This document shows, one piece after another, positions 13,773-53,867 of a DNA stretch of 53,867 nucleotides (position 1 is the stretch's first letter; the number at the start of each line of letters is the position of its first letter). Origin of the DNA: a virus; IMG/VR virus record IMGVR_UViG_3300032265_000458, positions 1 to 53,867 of that record; one strand, 5' to 3'. The position numbers were made by a program, and so were the translations under genes. The notes beneath the pieces are model-generated. The model saw only the letters and a list, made by a program, of their open reading frames with translations, ran no database searches and was not told the DNA's origin.

Positions 13773-14426
13773 ATGAAACTAATCAGAGAAGTCGTAGAAC
13801 ATACAAATTGTATCGTTGAAGAAAAGATCGGTAAAGGTAAGCAGTACTTTATCGAAGGTGTATTTCTTCAATCAGATATTACTAATCGTAACAAACGCAT
13901 GTATCCAGAACATATCATGGATAAAGAAGTCGGTCGTTACATGGAACAATGCGTACGCCAAAATCGTGCCTACGGTGAACTTGGTCATCCAGAAAACCCA
14001 TCTATTAACTTAGATCGTGTTTCACATATGATCGTTGATCTCCGTAAAGAAGGTACTAATTATATTGGTAAGGCTAAAATTCTTGATACTCCAATGGGAC
14101 AAATTGCACGTGGTCTTTTAGATGGTGGTGCAAATCTCGGTGTATCTAGTAGAGCACTTGGATCTCTCCAGATGAATAAAGAGGGTGTTCAAGTGGTACA
14201 GGATGATTTTATGCTGTCTACGGCAGCTGATATTGTCGCTGATCCATCCGCTCCAGATGCCTTTGTAAAAGGTATTATGGAAAGTCGTGAATGGGTATTT
14301 GTTAATGGAAAGTTTGTGGAGAAACATATTGATGAAGTTAAGTCTTTTATTAGAAAGACTTCATCTAGAAATCTAACCGAAGCGAAATTAATCGCTTTCC
14401 AAAATTTTCTGAGCAAAATCAGATAA
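13773..14426 (+). CDS. 21: Prohead core protease gp21
   Basis: A serine protease of the herpesvirus-assemblin-like fold that cleaves scaffold, core and capsid proteins during T4-type maturation. Visible motifs: the catalytic His in GELGHPENP (H72) and the nucleophile Ser in GVSSRALG (S124/S125). 217 residues against 212 in T4. It lies directly before the scaffold gene gp22, as in T4. Confidence 0.94.
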   Translation: MKLIREVVEHTNCIVEEKIGKGKQYFIEGVFLQSDITNRNKRMYPEHIMDKEVGRYMEQCVRQNRAYGELGHPENPSINLDRVSHMIVDLRKEGTNYIGKAKILDTPMGQIARGLLDGGANLGVSSRALGSLQMNKEGVQVVQDDFMLSTAADIVADPSAPDAFVKGIMESREWVFVNGKFVEKHIDEVKSFIRKTSSRNLTEAKLIAFQNFLSKIR

Positions 14427-14467: not shown

Positions 14468-15478
14468 ATGTCATTAGAACAAAAAATTGCTGCCCTTCTC
14501 GCCGAGTCAAAAACTGCCCAGTTATCTGAGCAAGTTGCTGAAATCGAAGAGACAGAAGTATCCGAAGAAGTAGTAGCTGAAGAAGCTGCTAAGCCAACCA
14601 ATGCTCCAGCTAACCCTGACAACGCTAGAAATAACGTTGACAACGAAGATGAAGCTACTAAAGGCACTTCTAAAACCAAGAACGTAGTTAACAAAGATGA
14701 AGCTGCTGGCGAAACAAGCAATATCGCTTCTGTTGCTAAAGAGCCTAAATCTGCTACCAATGTTAAAGAAGATATCGATGCACTTATGAATGGTGAGGAT
14801 CTCTCAGAAGAGTTCCGTACTAAAGCTACAACCATTTATGAAGCTGCAGTTATGACTCGTGTTGCTGCTGAAGTATCACGAATCGAAGAAGAATTCGATG
14901 CGAAACTTGAAGAAGCTATCGCACAGAATCAAGAGGGACTTGTTGAAAAAGTTGATGGATATCTTAGCTACATAGCTGAGGAGTGGATTACACAGAATGA
15001 AATAGCCCTTGAGCACGGTATGAAGTCCGAAATCCTAGAAGGATTTGTTGCTGGACTAAAAGGTCTTTTTGAAGAACACTATATCGATATTCCTGAAGAG
15101 AAATTCGATGTTGTTGGTCAGATGGAAGAACAAGTTGCAGAACTTGAAGCAAAACTAAACGAACAGTTGGCTGCCAATGTAGAGTTGAATAAAACTCTTG
15201 CTGAAGCAAAGCGTTCTGAAATCGTTGCAACTGCATGTGAAGGTTTAACTGACACTCAAGTTGAAAAACTGCAAGGTCTAGCTGAAGAATTGTCTTATGA
15301 AGATGTTGAAACTTTCTCTAAGAAAGTAACTACTATTCGTGAGAACTACTTCACTACTAAAGCGCAAGCTGATGTTGAGTCCGTAGTAACAGATGCTCCA
15401 GTAGAAATTTTGACCGAGACAACTAAAAACGTTGATCCACAAATGGCCAAATATCTATCCGCATTAACTCGTAAATAA
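14468..15478 (+). CDS. 22: Prohead scaffolding core protein gp22
   Basis: The major internal scaffold that shapes the prohead and is degraded by gp21. The 336-residue protein is very rich in Glu, Ala and Lys. It has a predicted coiled coil over about 215-260 (QMEEQVAELEAKLNEQL) and a C-terminal MAKYLSALTRK that fits the T4-like family. T4 gp22 is 269 residues; the extra length is mostly an acidic low-complexity region at 25-100. It is flanked by gp21 and gp23 as in T4. Confidence 0.92.
   Translation: MSLEQKIAALLAESKTAQLSEQVAEIEETEVSEEVVAEEAAKPTNAPANPDNARNNVDNEDEATKGTSKTKNVVNKDEAAGETSNIASVAKEPKSATNVKEDIDALMNGEDLSEEFRTKATTIYEAAVMTRVAAEVSRIEEEFDAKLEEAIAQNQEGLVEKVDGYLSYIAEEWITQNEIALEHGMKSEILEGFVAGLKGLFEEHYIDIPEEKFDVVGQMEEQVAELEAKLNEQLAANVELNKTLAEAKRSEIVATACEGLTDTQVEKLQGLAEELSYEDVETFSKKVTTIRENYFTTKAQADVESVVTDAPVEILTETTKNVDPQMAKYLSALTRK
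15470..15477 (+). promoter_or_regulatory. Candidate late promoter box CGTAAATA upstream of gp23
   Basis: CGTAAATA overlaps the end of gp22 and matches TATAAATA at six of eight bases, 25 bp before the capsid gene. T4 also has a strong late promoter for gene 23. AAAGGA at 15489-15494 supplies the ribosome-binding site. Confidence 0.4.
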
Positions 15479-15502: not shown

Positions 15503-16765
15503 ATGTTGAATCGTCAAGATCTATTAAAAAAGTGGGCACCTGTACTAGACAGTACTGATGCTCCATCAATCAAAGAACAGTATCGTCGTGAAGTTACTGC
15601 TGTTCTATTAGAAAACCAAGAACGTGAAGGTGCTAAGTCTGCTGAAGCCCTTTTCGAAACTGCTCCAGCTAACGCTGGTGGTGCTGGTATCGCCTTAGGT
15701 GCTGCTGGTTCTAACGCAAGCATGGCTGGTTACGATCCTGTGCTTATCGCATTGGTACGTCGTGCAGCTCCACAACTTATCGCTTATGATATCGCTGGCG
15801 TTCAGCCAATGACTCAGCCAACTGGTTTGATCTTCGCAATGAAGAGCAAGTATACTAGCCAAGGTGGTACTGAAGCGTTGTTCAACGAAGCAAACACTGC
15901 ATTCTCTGGTGCAGCATCTCCTGCTCACGCTGGATCTAACCCAGAAACTGGTACTTATACTACTGGTACTGCAATGACTACAGCTACTGCTGAAGATTTG
16001 ACTTTTGCTCAGATGGCTTTCTCTATCGAGAAGACAACTGTAACTGCTCAGACTCGTGCTTTGAAAGCAGAATACACTGTTGAACTTGCACAAGACTTGA
16101 AAGCAGTTCATGGTCTTGACGCTGAAGCTGAATTAAGCAACATCCTTTCAACTGAAATCACTTCAGAAATCAATCGTGAAGTAGTTCGTACTGTTTACTC
16201 AGCAGCTAAAGCTGGTGCTGAAGTTGGTACTGCTACTCAAGGTACTTTTGACCTTGACGTTGATTCAAATGGTCGTTGGTCTGTTGAGAAGTTCAAAGGT
16301 CTATTGTTCCAAATCGAACGTGAAGCCAATGCGATTGCTCAGACTACTCGTCGTGGTCGTGGTAACTTCATCATCTGTTCTTCAGATGTTGCTTCTGCTC
16401 TAGCAATGGCTGGTGTTCTTGATTACGCTCCTGCGTTGTCTACTAGCTTGAATGTTGACGAAGCATCTACTACTTTTGCTGGTGTTCTAAACGGCAAGTA
16501 CAAAGTATATGTTGACCCATATTCAGCAAACCAATCTTCTACTCAGTTCTTCGTAACTGGTTACAAAGGTTCTTCAGCGTTTGATGCTGGCTTGTTCTAT
16601 TGCCCATACGTTCCATTGCAAATGGTTCGTGCAGTTGACCCATCCAACTTCCAACCTAAAATTGGTTTCAAGACTCGTTACGGCATGGTTGCAAACCCAT
16701 TCACTAGCTTGTCTTCTGGTACTAACATCTATTACCGTAAGGTTGCTGTTACTAACTTGATGTAA
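15503..16765 (+). CDS. 23: Major capsid protein gp23
   Basis: A HK97-fold major capsid protein of the T4 type, 420 residues (T4: 521). The N-terminal 52 residues form a delta-like propeptide ending in L50-F51-E52, which fits the gp21 cleavage rule (L/I)-x-E. After that come a Gly/Ala-rich segment, the ALVRRAAPQLIAYDIAGVQPM region typical of T4-like capsids, and a C-terminal PFTSL...NIYYRKVAVTNLM. It is followed by a strong terminator. Confidence 0.96.
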   Translation: MLNRQDLLKKWAPVLDSTDAPSIKEQYRREVTAVLLENQEREGAKSAEALFETAPANAGGAGIALGAAGSNASMAGYDPVLIALVRRAAPQLIAYDIAGVQPMTQPTGLIFAMKSKYTSQGGTEALFNEANTAFSGAASPAHAGSNPETGTYTTGTAMTTATAEDLTFAQMAFSIEKTTVTAQTRALKAEYTVELAQDLKAVHGLDAEAELSNILSTEITSEINREVVRTVYSAAKAGAEVGTATQGTFDLDVDSNGRWSVEKFKGLLFQIEREANAIAQTTRRGRGNFIICSSDVASALAMAGVLDYAPALSTSLNVDEASTTFAGVLNGKYKVYVDPYSANQSSTQFFVTGYKGSSAFDAGLFYCPYVPLQMVRAVDPSNFQPKIGFKTRYGMVANPFTSLSSGTNIYYRKVAVTNLM

Positions 16766-16805: not shown

Positions 16806-16839
16806 AAAGGGAGGTCTTCGGATCTCCCTTTTTTTCTTT
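16806..16839 (+). terminator. Intrinsic terminator after gp23
   Basis: An 11-bp stem (AAAGGGAGGTC, 16806-16816, with 16821-16831; one G-T wobble) is closed by a stable TTCG tetraloop (16817-16820). It is followed by a T-rich tract to 16839. It ends the head and tail transcription unit. Confidence 0.93.
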
Positions 16840-16846
16840 ATAAATA
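16839..16846 (+). promoter_or_regulatory. T4-type late promoter TATAAATA
   Basis: An exact TATAAATA followed by CTATT, which from memory also agrees with the extended T4 late-promoter consensus. It sits directly after the gp23 terminator and only 5 bases before the ATG at 16852. The expected start site, about 6-7 bases past the box, falls on or next to the start codon. Confidence 0.75.
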
Positions 16847-16851
16847 CTATT

Positions 16852-17379
16852 ATGACTACAATCTCTCACGTTCCAACAGACATCTCTCCATTATCGCCTA
16901 ATGGATTCATGTTCAATATTCAGAAATTACCAAACGTAACTTTCTTTTGTCAACAAGTTAATCTACCAGGAATCACTTTGGGTACTCCTGAGTTCATTAA
17001 CCCATTTGGTACTGCTCCAATTCCAGGAGACAGTTTAACCTATGACACATTACAAGTTCAATTTTTGGTTGATGAAAAGATGGATAATTATCGTGCAATC
17101 TATAATTGGATTGTTGCTTTAGGTTTCCCTGAAACTTATGCACAGTATACAACTTTCTTATCTCAGGCTGACGCTTTAACTACTTCAGAACTTGCAAAGA
17201 ATTTCTCTGATGCAACATTATCCATTCTTGATGGATCTAACAACACTGTTGCAAACTTTTCATTTCATGATATGTTCCCAATGTCTATTGACTCTCTATC
17301 CTTTCAATCAACTAGCCAAGACGTGCAATATTTAATAGGTAACGCAACATTCCGTTACGCATACTACAAATTTGTTTGA
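16852..17379 (+). CDS. Tail tube-like protein (gp19/gp54-type paralogue)
   Basis: A 175-residue protein with the hallmarks of the tube fold: an N-terminal NGFMFNIQKLPNVTFFCQQV segment, a PIPGDSLTYDTLQVQFLVDE beta hairpin, a YNWIVALGFPETYAQY helix and a C-terminal Ser/Thr-rich strand pair. It is distinct from the main tube gp19 at 10354. A T4-like gp54 (tube initiator) or other tube-family role is possible. No ribosome-binding site is visible before the ATG. Confidence 0.7.
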   Translation: MTTISHVPTDISPLSPNGFMFNIQKLPNVTFFCQQVNLPGITLGTPEFINPFGTAPIPGDSLTYDTLQVQFLVDEKMDNYRAIYNWIVALGFPETYAQYTTFLSQADALTTSELAKNFSDATLSILDGSNNTVANFSFHDMFPMSIDSLSFQSTSQDVQYLIGNATFRYAYYKFV

Positions 17380-50038: not shown

Positions 50039-51247
50039 ATGGCTAAGATAGCAAATGAGTTAGACCTGAGAGCGATTCAGGCTAAACTCACTCCTGCTGC
50101 CAAGAAAGAATGGAAGGTTATCTGTGCTGGTCTTTCAGACGTACAGGAAGCAGTTCTAAAGAAACTCTGGCAAACCCCAGCAGTCACCTGTTGTATATAC
50201 ACAGGTAGCGTTACCTTTAGAATAGGAACTGGTTCTGTAAAGGGAATGGCTATTTCCCCTGCAGGATTCAAAACTTCATTCTCCCCAAAGGGAACAACTG
50301 CTTCTGATATATTCTTAAAAAAATATGATAGAAGTTTCGCTGTAACTTCCACAGAGAAGTTTATTATTACATGCGCATTTTATTTTCTGATCCATGCTCC
50401 AGATAGAGTTAAAACTGAATCTGATAAGACAGAAGCGTCAGAAGGACAACAAGTCTTAGCAACACAAGCAGCATTAAAAGCACTTGTTAAAGAGTATGGT
50501 GAGATTCGTTTAAAGATTGGTGACAACTCTTACAACGTAGATGAGTTCTCACAATACACTGCTGGTCGTCCAAAAGCAGATGCTACTTTCAAATATAAAG
50601 GTGTTGACGTTGTTTGGCTATCACTTAAGAAGGGTGGTAAACCAGCTGACTGGCAACAATATGGTGGTAGTGCTGACCTTGGAATTGTTGGTGGAGATGT
50701 GACTAAGTTTCCAGATATTAAATTATTTGCAGATAATATCACTAAAGTCTTTGAGGCACTTGGTGTTTCAAAAGGTAAGAACGGTAAATATGATTTTAAT
50801 TCTTTGGATAAAGGATCTTACTTTGGAATGCCATTGAAGAATCATATGGTAGCATGTAAAGTTATGTATGGAAAAGACTTCGGTCCAAAGTTTGGAATCA
50901 ATAATTGTAACGTATGCGTTGATGGTGATTTAAAATTCATCAAAGCCAGAGGAAGTAATGAATTTGAATTGGGTGGACAATATCACATAAGTGTCAATCC
51001 CTATGAATTCAAAAGCCCAAAATTCCCAAAGTACGATCCAGCCGATCTTTATGCTCCAGTTCTTTTTGTGACCAAAGCACAGAACGTAAACCAGATAGGA
51101 TTTGATCATGCTAGGTTTTATATTTGGCCACAGAACGTACCTGCTAAAAAAGGTATCCAAAACCTAGATGAGTCGCTAAATACTATTGCTGGTAAGAATA
51201 AATCGGCTCTGGCAGCTATGGCTACTAAATTCCTCCCCTCAAAATAG
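50039..51247 (+). CDS. Hypothetical protein with PD-(D/E)XK-like motif
   Basis: 402 residues. The central region GRPKADATFKYKGVDVVWLS holds D181 followed by S195-L-K197, compatible with a nuclease core of the D-(x)n-(S/E)-x-K type. Helices lie upstream and a beta-rich C-terminal region with aromatic residues downstream. A late-type promoter box precedes it. A restriction-type or ejected nuclease is possible but unproved. Confidence 0.6.
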   Translation: MAKIANELDLRAIQAKLTPAAKKEWKVICAGLSDVQEAVLKKLWQTPAVTCCIYTGSVTFRIGTGSVKGMAISPAGFKTSFSPKGTTASDIFLKKYDRSFAVTSTEKFIITCAFYFLIHAPDRVKTESDKTEASEGQQVLATQAALKALVKEYGEIRLKIGDNSYNVDEFSQYTAGRPKADATFKYKGVDVVWLSLKKGGKPADWQQYGGSADLGIVGGDVTKFPDIKLFADNITKVFEALGVSKGKNGKYDFNSLDKGSYFGMPLKNHMVACKVMYGKDFGPKFGINNCNVCVDGDLKFIKARGSNEFELGGQYHISVNPYEFKSPKFPKYDPADLYAPVLFVTKAQNVNQIGFDHARFYIWPQNVPAKKGIQNLDESLNTIAGKNKSALAAMATKFLPSK

Positions 51248-51337: not shown

Positions 51338-51345
51338 TATAAATA
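51338..51345 (+). promoter_or_regulatory. T4-type late promoter TATAAATA
   Basis: An exact TATAAATA 28 bases before ATG 51374. Together with the early-type promoter at 51283 it gives the right-end cluster two modes of expression. Late expression fits packaging of the products into the capsid. Confidence 0.7.
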
Positions 51346-51373: not shown

Positions 51374-52579
51374 ATGAAATCATTCCAGTCTTTTTTAAAA
51401 GAAGAAGCCGAAGCCGAAGCCGAAGGCACGAAATTAAAGCACATCACTCATCCTGAGGATCGTCCTTTAATGCATGGTCACGAAGGTTTCGAGCATGCTC
51501 ATGGCGCATTGACCCATGCGCACGAACACATGAAAGCTGGTAAGAATAACGCAAACCTTACTACAAAGTACGACGGATCACCAGCTGTGGTTTTCGGTAC
51601 TCATCCAAAAAATAAGAAGTTCTTTGTTGCTTCTAAGTCTGCATTTAACAAAGATCCAAAAATCAATCATACTGATGCTGATATTGATAAAAATCATGGT
51701 CATGCTCCAGGTCTCGCAGATAAATTAAAAGCTGCACTACACCACCTACCAAAAGTAACACCAAAGGGTAAAGTATATCAGGGTGATATTATGCACTCTG
51801 AGGGTGATGTTCAACACGATAAGAAAAAAGGAACTGCTTCCTTTACACCAAACACCATCACTTACACTGCGCATGGCGATGAAGCCAAGAAAGCTGCAAA
51901 GGCAAAAGTAGGTGTTGCGGTTCATACCCAATACCATGGTAAAGACATTCAATCGATGTCTGCTCACCACGAAGTTAATCATGATGAGTTTGGTCAGCAT
52001 CCTGATGTTCACCACCACGATGCTAGCTATGATACTAGTACAGTTAATCATTCTCAAGCTAATCAAGATGAATTCCATAAGCACATGAATGCTGCGAAAG
52101 CGATTCATGATGAACATGGATCTAAAATGTATAACGCTGTGCACCCAAGTCACAGTGGTGATAGTGGTCATCTTGCTACATACATTAACTCAACTGTTAG
52201 AACCAATAGCACTCCAAACGTAAAAGGTTTTAAGGCACATCTTCAAGCCCATCACGATAAACAAGTTGCTGGTGTTAAGACTGAGAAATCCCAAAACGCT
52301 AAACGTGAAAAGGGTAATGAAGAACTTGCCCACGTTGAAAAGAATAAATCTCATTATGAGAATGTATTGAATGCTCATAATCACTTGGCTGCTGCAAAGA
52401 ACACTTTAGTTAAATCTTTGGAGAGTGGACATAGCAATTATGAACATCATATCGAAGGTAAAGAATCCAAACCAGAAGGTTTCGTTATTAACCATGAACA
52501 CAATGGTAAAACAGAACCATCTAAACTTGTGAATCGTGCTGAGTTCGCAAGATCTAACTTGTTAAAGGTGCGTAAATGA
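51374..52579 (+). CDS. DUF6267-like nucleotidyltransferase (RNA/DNA ligase-like), capsid-targeted candidate
   Basis: 401 residues, unusually His-rich. Superfamily motifs of covalent nucleotidyltransferases: motif I K65-Y-D-G68, motif IIIa-like VYQGDIMH (134-141), motif IV E368-G-F-V-I and motif V K383-L-V-N. From memory this matches DUF6267 proteins of cyanophages (KWDG type). The N terminus MKSFQSFLKEE shares M-K-S/T-F with the next two genes. It resembles the T4 capsid-targeting sequence, with L-x-E where gp21 would cut (FLKE). A late promoter precedes it. Substrate unknown. Confidence 0.75.
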   Translation: MKSFQSFLKEEAEAEAEGTKLKHITHPEDRPLMHGHEGFEHAHGALTHAHEHMKAGKNNANLTTKYDGSPAVVFGTHPKNKKFFVASKSAFNKDPKINHTDADIDKNHGHAPGLADKLKAALHHLPKVTPKGKVYQGDIMHSEGDVQHDKKKGTASFTPNTITYTAHGDEAKKAAKAKVGVAVHTQYHGKDIQSMSAHHEVNHDEFGQHPDVHHHDASYDTSTVNHSQANQDEFHKHMNAAKAIHDEHGSKMYNAVHPSHSGDSGHLATYINSTVRTNSTPNVKGFKAHLQAHHDKQVAGVKTEKSQNAKREKGNEELAHVEKNKSHYENVLNAHNHLAAAKNTLVKSLESGHSNYEHHIEGKESKPEGFVINHEHNGKTEPSKLVNRAEFARSNLLKVRK

Positions 52580-53622
52580 AATCGTTTAAATCTTTCTTAA
52601 CTGAAGAAGAACTCTACGAACAGGTATTGGTCGAGAGTGCTGACGATGCTACCAAAGAACATGGCGTTTCAAATAACACCAAAGGTGTTCTACATGAACT
52701 TCTAGTTGGTAAGCATTTAAATAATGGTAAGCATTTAGAGACTCACAAAAACGAACACAACGAAACACCTGAGCAGGCGCATGATCGTTTGAAGTCAGCA
52801 GTTCATCCAAACGATTATAAGCGTATTGACTCCAACGCTAAGTCTGCTGCTGGTCACATTAAGAAACATATTGAAACTACTCATCCAGGACATGCTGTGC
52901 ATGGTGTTCATTGGACTTCAAAACCTGGAGATACCGAAAAAGTAACTGGTCATAAAGCAACACAGAAAGATGATTCATCTGATGTTTATGTTTCTACCAA
53001 GCATCCTAAGACTGGTAAAGTAACTCATCATGGTGTAAGTTTAAAAGTTAGCGACCAGTCAAGTAAGAACATTCCTTCTTCAAGTCTTGGTATGGAATCT
53101 GGTGGGTCAAAAGCCAAAGAACATTTTGCTGCTCACAAGGCAGATATTGTTAAAGCGCATCCCCAGCTGGCTGGCAAAAATAAAGAGCAACGTAAAGAGA
53201 TCGCCAAAGCAGATCCTAAGATGCATGCTGATGTTAAAGAACGTAACAAAGTATTACTACATAAGGTTGCCCATAGTCATGCTGCTGAATTGCAGCACCA
53301 TCTAGATTCTGGTAATCATGAGCACGTAGTTAAGCATATCCGTGAAGTTCTTCATGCTCATAAAACACCTGCTCAAGAAGCTGGACATAGTTTTATCAAG
53401 CACACAACATATCAAACTGCTAAAGGTGTTCAACACCATGCCAGTAACCCAAGTGAAGACCATGAGCATATCCTCAAAGATCATAAGAATCTTTCAGTAA
53501 AATCTAGCGGTGGTTCGGTTCACTTCTATCACAAAGACAAAAAGTTTGCTTCTCAAGCCCACAAGTTGGATTCACAAAGTGATCCACTGAGTTCATTGAA
53601 GAGCGCAGGAAAGGCTGTATAA
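52576..53622 (+). CDS. His/Lys-rich PD-(D/E)XK-like protein, capsid-targeted candidate
   Basis: 348 residues, ATGA-overlapping the previous gene. The N terminus MKSFKSFLTEEE has the capsid-targeting-like motif with L-T-E. The pattern E41 (VLHELLVGK), D136 (SSDVYVS) and S155-L-K157 (HGVSLKVSD) fits a PD-(D/E)XK nuclease core, though it is not conclusive. The rest is rich in His, Lys and Asn. If packaged, it could enter the cell with the DNA. Function not proven. Confidence 0.65.
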   Translation: MKSFKSFLTEEELYEQVLVESADDATKEHGVSNNTKGVLHELLVGKHLNNGKHLETHKNEHNETPEQAHDRLKSAVHPNDYKRIDSNAKSAAGHIKKHIETTHPGHAVHGVHWTSKPGDTEKVTGHKATQKDDSSDVYVSTKHPKTGKVTHHGVSLKVSDQSSKNIPSSSLGMESGGSKAKEHFAAHKADIVKAHPQLAGKNKEQRKEIAKADPKMHADVKERNKVLLHKVAHSHAAELQHHLDSGNHEHVVKHIREVLHAHKTPAQEAGHSFIKHTTYQTAKGVQHHASNPSEDHEHILKDHKNLSVKSSGGSVHFYHKDKKFASQAHKLDSQSDPLSSLKSAGKAV

Positions 53623-53867
53623 TGAAAACATTTAAAGGTTATCTTGATAGCTGTGTAAAAGAAGAAGTAGAACAGCACCACGCATTAGCATTTGGTCGCA
53701 TGAACCCAATTACTTCTGGCCATGAGGCAGTAGTTAATAAATTGCATTCAGTTGCCAAAGAACATAATGCTACTCATAGTCTTGTAGTTTCTCATAGCCA
53801 AGATGCTAAGAAGAATCCTTTATCTGCTGAACAAAAAGTTAAGCACGCTAAACACGCATTCCCTGGA
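53622..53867 (+). CDS. NMNAT-like nucleotidyltransferase (3' partial), capsid-targeted candidate
   Basis: 82 codons to the window edge. After a capsid-targeting-like start (MKTFKGYLDSCVKEE), ALAFGRMNPITSGHEAVV carries the N-terminal (T/H)-x-G-H motif (TSGH) of the nicotinamide-nucleotide adenylyltransferase/cytidylyltransferase superfamily. ATG 53622 overlaps the previous stop (TAATG). If it completes, it would make NAD+ or a related adenylyl product. The missing C-terminal part (ISSTxxR motif) is needed to confirm. Confidence 0.75.
   Translation, partial: MKTFKGYLDSCVKEEVEQHHALAFGRMNPITSGHEAVVNKLHSVAKEHNATHSLVVSHSQDAKKNPLSAEQKVKHAKHAFPG

Follow-up and report, generated by a model that had tools for sequence, protein, structure and literature searches.

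Three consecutive genes at the right end of a phage genome share an N-terminal leader, which, judging from its sequence, is a real, non-random and mechanistically interpretable feature that works like the internal protein (IP) system of T4. The genome belongs to an aquatic, as yet uncultured T4-like bacteriophage (an IMG/VR virus record of 53,867 bases, the whole of which is called the window here). We consider it likely, by analogy with T4, that the three genes constitute a late operon of capsid cargo of the T4 IP type, which would be processed by the prohead protease gp21 and then injected. Packaging of their products in the capsid of this phage is considered likely, and we infer their ejection and enzymatic function. 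The features under discussion are collected in Table 1.

Table 1. Positions of the leader-bearing genes, their motifs and the head genes in the window
Feature	Position	Strand	Remarks
gp21 prohead protease	13773..14426	+	Pfam Peptidase_S77, E 8e-38; phrog_207 head maturation protease
gp22 scaffold	14468..15478	+	Pfam T4_CASP, E 2e-72; LAE at residues 11-13
gp23 major capsid protein	15503..16765	+	Pfam Gp23, E 8e-136
T4-type late promoter core TATAAATA	51338..51345	+	exact match, 36 bases 5' of gene 1 start
Gene 1	51374..52579	+	401 aa, MKSFQSFLKEEAEAEAEG; predicted CTS leader and DUF6267 body
Gene 1 leader MKSFQSFLKE	51374..51403	+	F4, F7 (targeting); L8, E10 (cleavage), as predicted
KYDG, motif I-like	51566..51577	+	residues 65-68; K65, D67, G68 invariant in 30 homologues
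EGFV, motif IV-like	52475..52486	+	residues 368-371; E368, G369, V371 invariant in 30 homologues (PEGxV)
Gene 2	52576..53622	+	348 aa, MKSFKSFLTEEELYEQVLVE; predicted CTS leader and novel body
Gene 2 leader MKSFKSFLTE	52576..52605	+	conserved in 19 homologues
Second L-x-E site LVE	52627..52635	+	gene 2 residues 18-20
Gene 3	53622..53867	+	82 aa, MKTFKGYLDSCVKEEVEQ; ORF open at window end; predicted CTS leader and NMNAT/cytidylyltransferase
Gene 3 leader MKTFKGYLDS	53622..53651	+	F4, Y7, L8 kept; S replaces E10

Pfam and PHROG profiles recognised a T4-type head module in the window, consisting of tail sheath, portal gp20, gp21, gp22 and gp23, and the gp21 gene named in an earlier note on this DNA is indeed among them. 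The window gp22 is presumed to be the docking partner for the leader in the prohead core. The gp23 protein carries its L-x-E site (LFE) at residues 50-52, ahead of the conserved Gp23 domain; since the L-x-E sites of gp22 and gp23 lie close to the T4 cleavage positions, they fit the usual specificity of gp21. The same gp23 is about 60-62% identical to gp23 of T4-like phages of Prochlorococcus, Synechococcus and Pelagibacter, which places the window phage near Kyanoviridae. The protein encoded at 34-2058 has collagen repeats, carries an endosialidase chaperone domain (Peptidase_S74) at its C terminus and is probably a tail fibre.

The N termini read MKSFQSFLKEE in gene 1, MKSFKSFLTEE in gene 2 and MKTFKGYLDSC (MKTFKGYLDSCVKEE) in gene 3, with aromatic residues at positions 4 and 7 in all of them. 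The L-x-E site that the earlier note had reported in the first two products lies at residues 8-10 (FLKE and FLTE), gene 2 having a further one downstream, and gene 3 has S10. The common motif, also reported there, proved unique to these genes among the plausible gene starts of the window. A loose pattern recurred at just three other starts on the + strand, namely two short TTG frames and a thioredoxin-like gene (MKALKFYTEW). From the column frequencies of 437 annotated cyanophage genes, the pattern at positions 2, 4, 7 and 8 is expected by chance at 0.0015 per gene, and the background of E at position 10 is 7.6% of starts.

In the T4 record, IPI starts with MKTFKEF, and IPII and IPIII both start with MKTYQEFIAEA, in agreement with the IPIII start (MKTYQEF) given in the earlier note. 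According to a T4 review (PMC9026906), residues 1-10 of IPIII are enough for packaging, and mutants of this capsid targeting sequence (CTS) indicate that positions 4 and 7 weigh most in targeting and positions 8 and 10 in processing, D at position 10 stopping processing with targeting kept; foreign proteins fused to the T4 leader were packaged and then delivered. The window leader agrees with the CTS at these four mutation-mapped positions (aromatic 4 and 7, L/I8, E10), except for S10 of gene 3. Genes 1 and 2 thus have, at the sequence level, what marks CTS-bearing internal head proteins of the T4 type. Gene 3 has the residues for targeting and not that for processing, and is claimed as targeted cargo, not as a processed internal protein; from the T4 result with D10, the prediction is that its product enters the capsid but escapes cleavage there.

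The resemblance to IPI, IPII and IPIII covers the ten-residue leader with aromatic residues 4 and 7, aliphatic residue 8 and E10 (the last in IPII and IPIII), the constant length of this leader before a divergent body, and the presence of a gp21-type protease and a gp22-type scaffold in the same genome. Moreover, the second site of gene 2 at residues 18-20 recalls the longer propeptide of IPI, which has a comparable ITEA stretch at 17-20. On the other hand, the T4 proteins are small and basic, whereas the window bodies are large enzyme-like domains, encoded consecutively in one operon, and gene 3 lacks the cleavage glutamate. The ADP-ribosyltransferase Alt of T4 is likewise a head-packaged enzyme that undergoes gp21 processing and, once ejected, acts on the host, but it starts with MELITELFDED instead of an IP-type leader and its body is unrelated. 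A pattern scan of the annotated T4 genes returned IPI, IPII, IPIII, the 54-aa gp61.1 and gp38, the last being a tail-fibre assembly protein whose fit to the loose pattern counts against the capsid-targeting reading. The gp61.1 gene (L010, NC_000866, 18966-19130, minus strand; MKTFKEFIKEDMVAGDS) has a complete leader, and its product may be an overlooked fourth internal protein of T4.

The leader is widespread in relatives and behaves as a module. In 162 related loci, the pattern was found on 251 of 2631 sense ORFs versus 7 of 3080 antisense ORFs, and five of these seven belong to one real NMNAT-like gene family. The search of relatives suggested in the earlier note placed the motif on at least five unrelated bodies: DUF6267, NMNAT-like, gene 2, Cys-rich DUF6321 and HAD-like, the HAD-like label being assigned by eye without a Pfam match; a sixth cluster is of low complexity and less certain. 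Although position 10 had been left out of the search pattern, E10 was found in 46/49 DUF6267, 26/29 NMNAT, 20/20 gene 2, 4/5 Cys-rich and 3/3 HAD-like leaders, far above the cyanophage background. DUF6267 orthologues carry the leader in Melnitz and C48C1 and lack it in P-RSM6, Syn1 and S-SZBM1, corresponding to at least two gains or losses on the DUF6267 tree, whose long branches blur the exact number. In cyanophage isolates, the DUF6267 gene adjoins the NMNAT-like gene or sits one small gene apart, and this adjacency together with a single PHROG profile covering both suggests an old association. The nearest relative of the region has consecutive leader-bearing genes for DUF6267, gene 2, Cys-rich, NMNAT and a second NMNAT-like protein; amid them is a leaderless Dps/ferritin-like gene (L107 7757-8200; PF00210, E 2e-21).

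With regard to gene 1, its 30 homologues have F4 and F/Y7 in 30/30, L/I8 in 30/30 and E10 in 29/30. The leader of constant length is followed by a linker of 5-15 aa in nine different lengths and then by the conserved body, an arrangement with the look of a removable propeptide. The body matches Pfam PF19782 (DUF6267) with E 6e-106, a family for which no mention was found in the literature searched. The motifs of ATP-dependent ligases and covalent nucleotidyltransferases (KxDG, EGxV and a late lysine) are all present; K384 is invariant in the 30 homologues and is assigned to motif V by position alone. The AF2 model of gene 1 has pLDDT 86, and RNA ligases were its top matches in the fold search (E at least 0.2, none below 0.001, not significant), while a PDB sequence search with gene 1 gave no match. 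Our best guess is that the body is a ligase-family nucleotidyltransferase, which these motifs and the model make fairly probable.

The 19 homologues of gene 2 all have K2, F4 and E10, together with F/W7 and L/I/V8 (19/19 each), and at the second site E20 is invariant and L18 is kept in at least 90%. The gene 2 body gave no accepted match to Pfam, PHROG or PDB sequences; scattered Pfam matches were incoherent and were disregarded, and no homologue was found among phage isolates at the sensitivity of the search. The AF2 model is moderate (pLDDT 73), and its best fold match is HinP1I (E 0.03, probability 0.66, TM 0.27; not significant). D136 is invariant among the homologues, with SLK close by. 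From the model, the body is tentatively taken as a possible PD-(D/E)xK nuclease, which we doubt more than we believe. Since the fold matches of genes 1 and 2 are not significant, their enzyme names are kept tentative. In both models the leader has low pLDDT and the body is folded.

Gene 3 matches phrog_3041 (E 2e-21), phrog_3462 NMNAT (E 0.003) and Pfam CTP_transf_like (E 5e-4), and has the (H/T)xGH signature as TSGH at the start of the domain, so that on its sequence it is very likely a nucleotidyltransferase of the NMNAT/cytidylyltransferase family. E10 is kept in 26 of 29 leader-bearing homologues, and the leader of the window gene 3 looks like a fusion of the start of a Cys-rich gene with the NMNAT gene. 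Among the enzyme labels given in the earlier note, NMNAT-like is therefore upheld by profiles and ligase-like by motifs with a weak fold match, and nuclease-like is reduced to a weak fold match.

The three genes are arranged head-to-tail with overlaps of 1-4 bases (ATGA, TAATG), as in a single operon. The exact late promoter that the earlier note had placed upstream is there, but TATAAATA occurs twice in the window versus 4.4 copies expected in a shuffle control; because this count is below chance, the site alone is no proof and its position is supportive only, and we dropped it as stand-alone evidence. The second copy (16839-16846) lies right after gp23 and ahead of a gene at 16852. The gene upstream of the cluster (50039-51247) was rejected as a member, being leaderless and unmatched to the neighbouring genes of cyanophages.

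Virion proteomes were scored against the genomes of three cyanophages, S-CREM2, S-SZBM1 and S-SCSM1, with the tables of S-SM1, S-PM2 and Syn9 outside the count. In S-CREM2, the strict motif is carried by gp6 (SAM hydrolase), gp13, gp14 (APH-like kinase) and gp154 (cytidylyltransferase). Each of these four appears in the virion list, which comprises 52 of the 219 genes (P=0.003, and P=0.0004 once recognised structural proteins are removed; the numbers are small and the strict pattern was set after the candidates had been seen), and no gene outside the list has the strict motif. Replication proteins, among them SSB, RecA and NrdA, are also missing from the list. By a rule derived from T4 (aromatic 4 and 7, aliphatic 8, E10, small register shifts permitted), 6 of 10 motif genes versus 121 of 709 others in the three pooled genomes encode virion proteins (P=0.003); this rule also caught S-CREM2 gp30, which was undetected in virions and is probably unrelated. 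In these genomes the motif is enriched in virion proteins and does not behave as a general start of non-virion proteins, an alternative that the earlier note had raised.

By mass spectrometry, NMNAT-like proteins were detected in virions of S-CREM2 (MKNFSSFLTEA), S-SZBM1 (gp140, MRFRQFIIEA) and S-SCSM1 (ORF91, MKSFLQFLKEA), while the leaderless DUF6267 protein gp141 adjoining S-SZBM1 gp140 was undetected. The S-SM1 cytidylyltransferase was also reported from virions (PMC3037559), and the S-CRM01 kinase, cited as a virion protein, starts with MISFDQFLSEK. These cyanophage NMNAT/cytidylyltransferases (T4-GC190; S-SM1, S-SZBM1, S-SCSM1, S-CREM2) are virion-detected homologues of gene 3, lie beside DUF6267 in Kyanoviridae and have the leader in 3/3 proteomes checked. 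They differ in that the published accounts, as far as their text was available, mention neither a leader nor an entry route, and the Syn1 copy has no leader. The small leader-bearing proteins S-SZBM1 gp191 and gp192 and S-SCSM1 ORF30 were undetected by virion mass spectrometry; gp191 (L002 32311-32628) and ORF30 (L182 4215-4535) are homologous, about 105 aa long (MKSFKSFLSESVNISGDFNG, MKTFKQFMSESVNISGDFNG), and are candidate small internal proteins. The virion-detected, Cas9-like S-CREM2 gp12 (L007 7704-10313) has LRFASFMAEA from about residue 17.

The capsid-targeting reading of the earlier note is thus well supported by the IP-like start, the conserved CTS positions, the modularity of the leader and the leader-bearing homologues in purified virions. 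It is improbable that the leader does package these proteins for roles within the head, such as core assembly, DNA condensation or head-size control, with no enzyme delivery. T4 IPIII influences head assembly, and some relatives have long low-complexity NMNAT-linked ORFs unlike soluble enzymes; however, the same T4 review describes CTS cargo as ejected (PMC9026906 for both), genes 1 and 3 encode conserved domains that resemble enzymes and have catalytic motifs, and in S-CREM2 a SAM hydrolase and an APH-like kinase are among the virion proteins with the leader.

Less probable still is that late proteins use this N terminus as an amphipathic helix for binding a membrane or a partner, unrelated to packaging. 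MKSFKSFL is amphipathic and was modelled as a low-confidence helix, but the near-invariant E10, L/I-x-E at the cleavage positions, the near identity with the T4 CTS and the co-occurrence of leader and virion detection speak against it. The motif is short, and two groups of proteome authors caution that abundant proteins may carry over through CsCl, so that a chance match or common phage start, combined with contamination by NMNAT-like proteins, might be suspected. This explanation is largely refuted by the contrast between sense and antisense ORFs, the confinement of the strict motif to the S-CREM2 virion list and the missing SSB, RecA and NrdA.

If the three products are injected cargo, genes 1-3 would be transcribed late together with the head genes, as one promoter match suggests, and leader residues 4 and 7 would dock the products in the gp22-containing prohead core, as in T4. 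Cleavage by gp21 after L/I-x-E at residues 8-10 would then release the enzyme inside the head, and in gene 2 the conserved site at 18-20 may be cut in addition or as an alternative. The gene 3 product would be targeted and probably retain its leader. DNA would be packaged around the cargo, and the enzymes would reach the next host along with the DNA and act ahead of phage gene expression. In T4, IPI inhibits a type IV restriction enzyme, and infection of one E. coli strain requires IPIII (PMC9391042), which makes early counter-defence a fair expectation for the window cargo. Phages rebuild NAD against NAD-depleting defences, according to one report (PMC12774641), and an injected NMNAT would suit such a role. 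The best-fitting guess is that, in the first minute of infection, the enzymes protect or repair host NAD and nucleic acid.

CTS cargo is already known from T4. In the giant phage SPN3US, injected proteins likewise have propeptides removed by the prohead protease (PMC5694885, PMC7411985); this is another phage lineage, and the likeness concerns processing of the propeptides. Neither the present enzyme cassette nor a link between the leader and virion proteomes was found in the literature searched, and a joint search for 'capsid targeting' and 'cyanophage' matched only the T4 review PMC9026906, in whose available part cyanophage appears in a cited title alone. NMNAT-like enzymes have turned up repeatedly in studies of cyanophage virions, which did not decide between cargo and contamination; the ten-residue leader, with determinants mapped experimentally in T4, offers a mechanism and a sequence test for them. 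It also allows prediction of ejected proteins from metagenomic phage genomes, and makes DUF6267 and the gene 2 family candidate injected enzymes for testing against host defences. More broadly, aquatic T4-like phages of the Kyanoviridae type might run a general cargo system, in which an interchangeable leader loads a changing enzyme kit into the head, a proposal we hold at somewhat under even chances. If true, the kit would include ligase-like, nuclease-like, NMNAT-like, SAM hydrolase, kinase, HAD-like and Cas9-like proteins, perhaps also polyproteins cleaved by gp21, as pre-made tools of counter-defence and takeover working ahead of transcription, and the leader would predict virion cargo in thousands of uncultured genomes.

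Finally, three related loci (L105 5917-8616, L114 5917-8295, L128 1518-4913) contain NMNAT-like ORFs that are 790-1131 aa long and have extended tails of low complexity. These ORFs have internal leader-like segments, for example MKSYKEFLQGLDE or VKSFKFFTAEQ, which suggests capsid polyproteins cut by gp21. In addition, five consecutive genes of S-CRM01 (g127-g131, L181 205-4783), including those for a kinase and the cytidylyltransferase, all have the leader pattern at or close to their starts and are a candidate for another cargo cassette.
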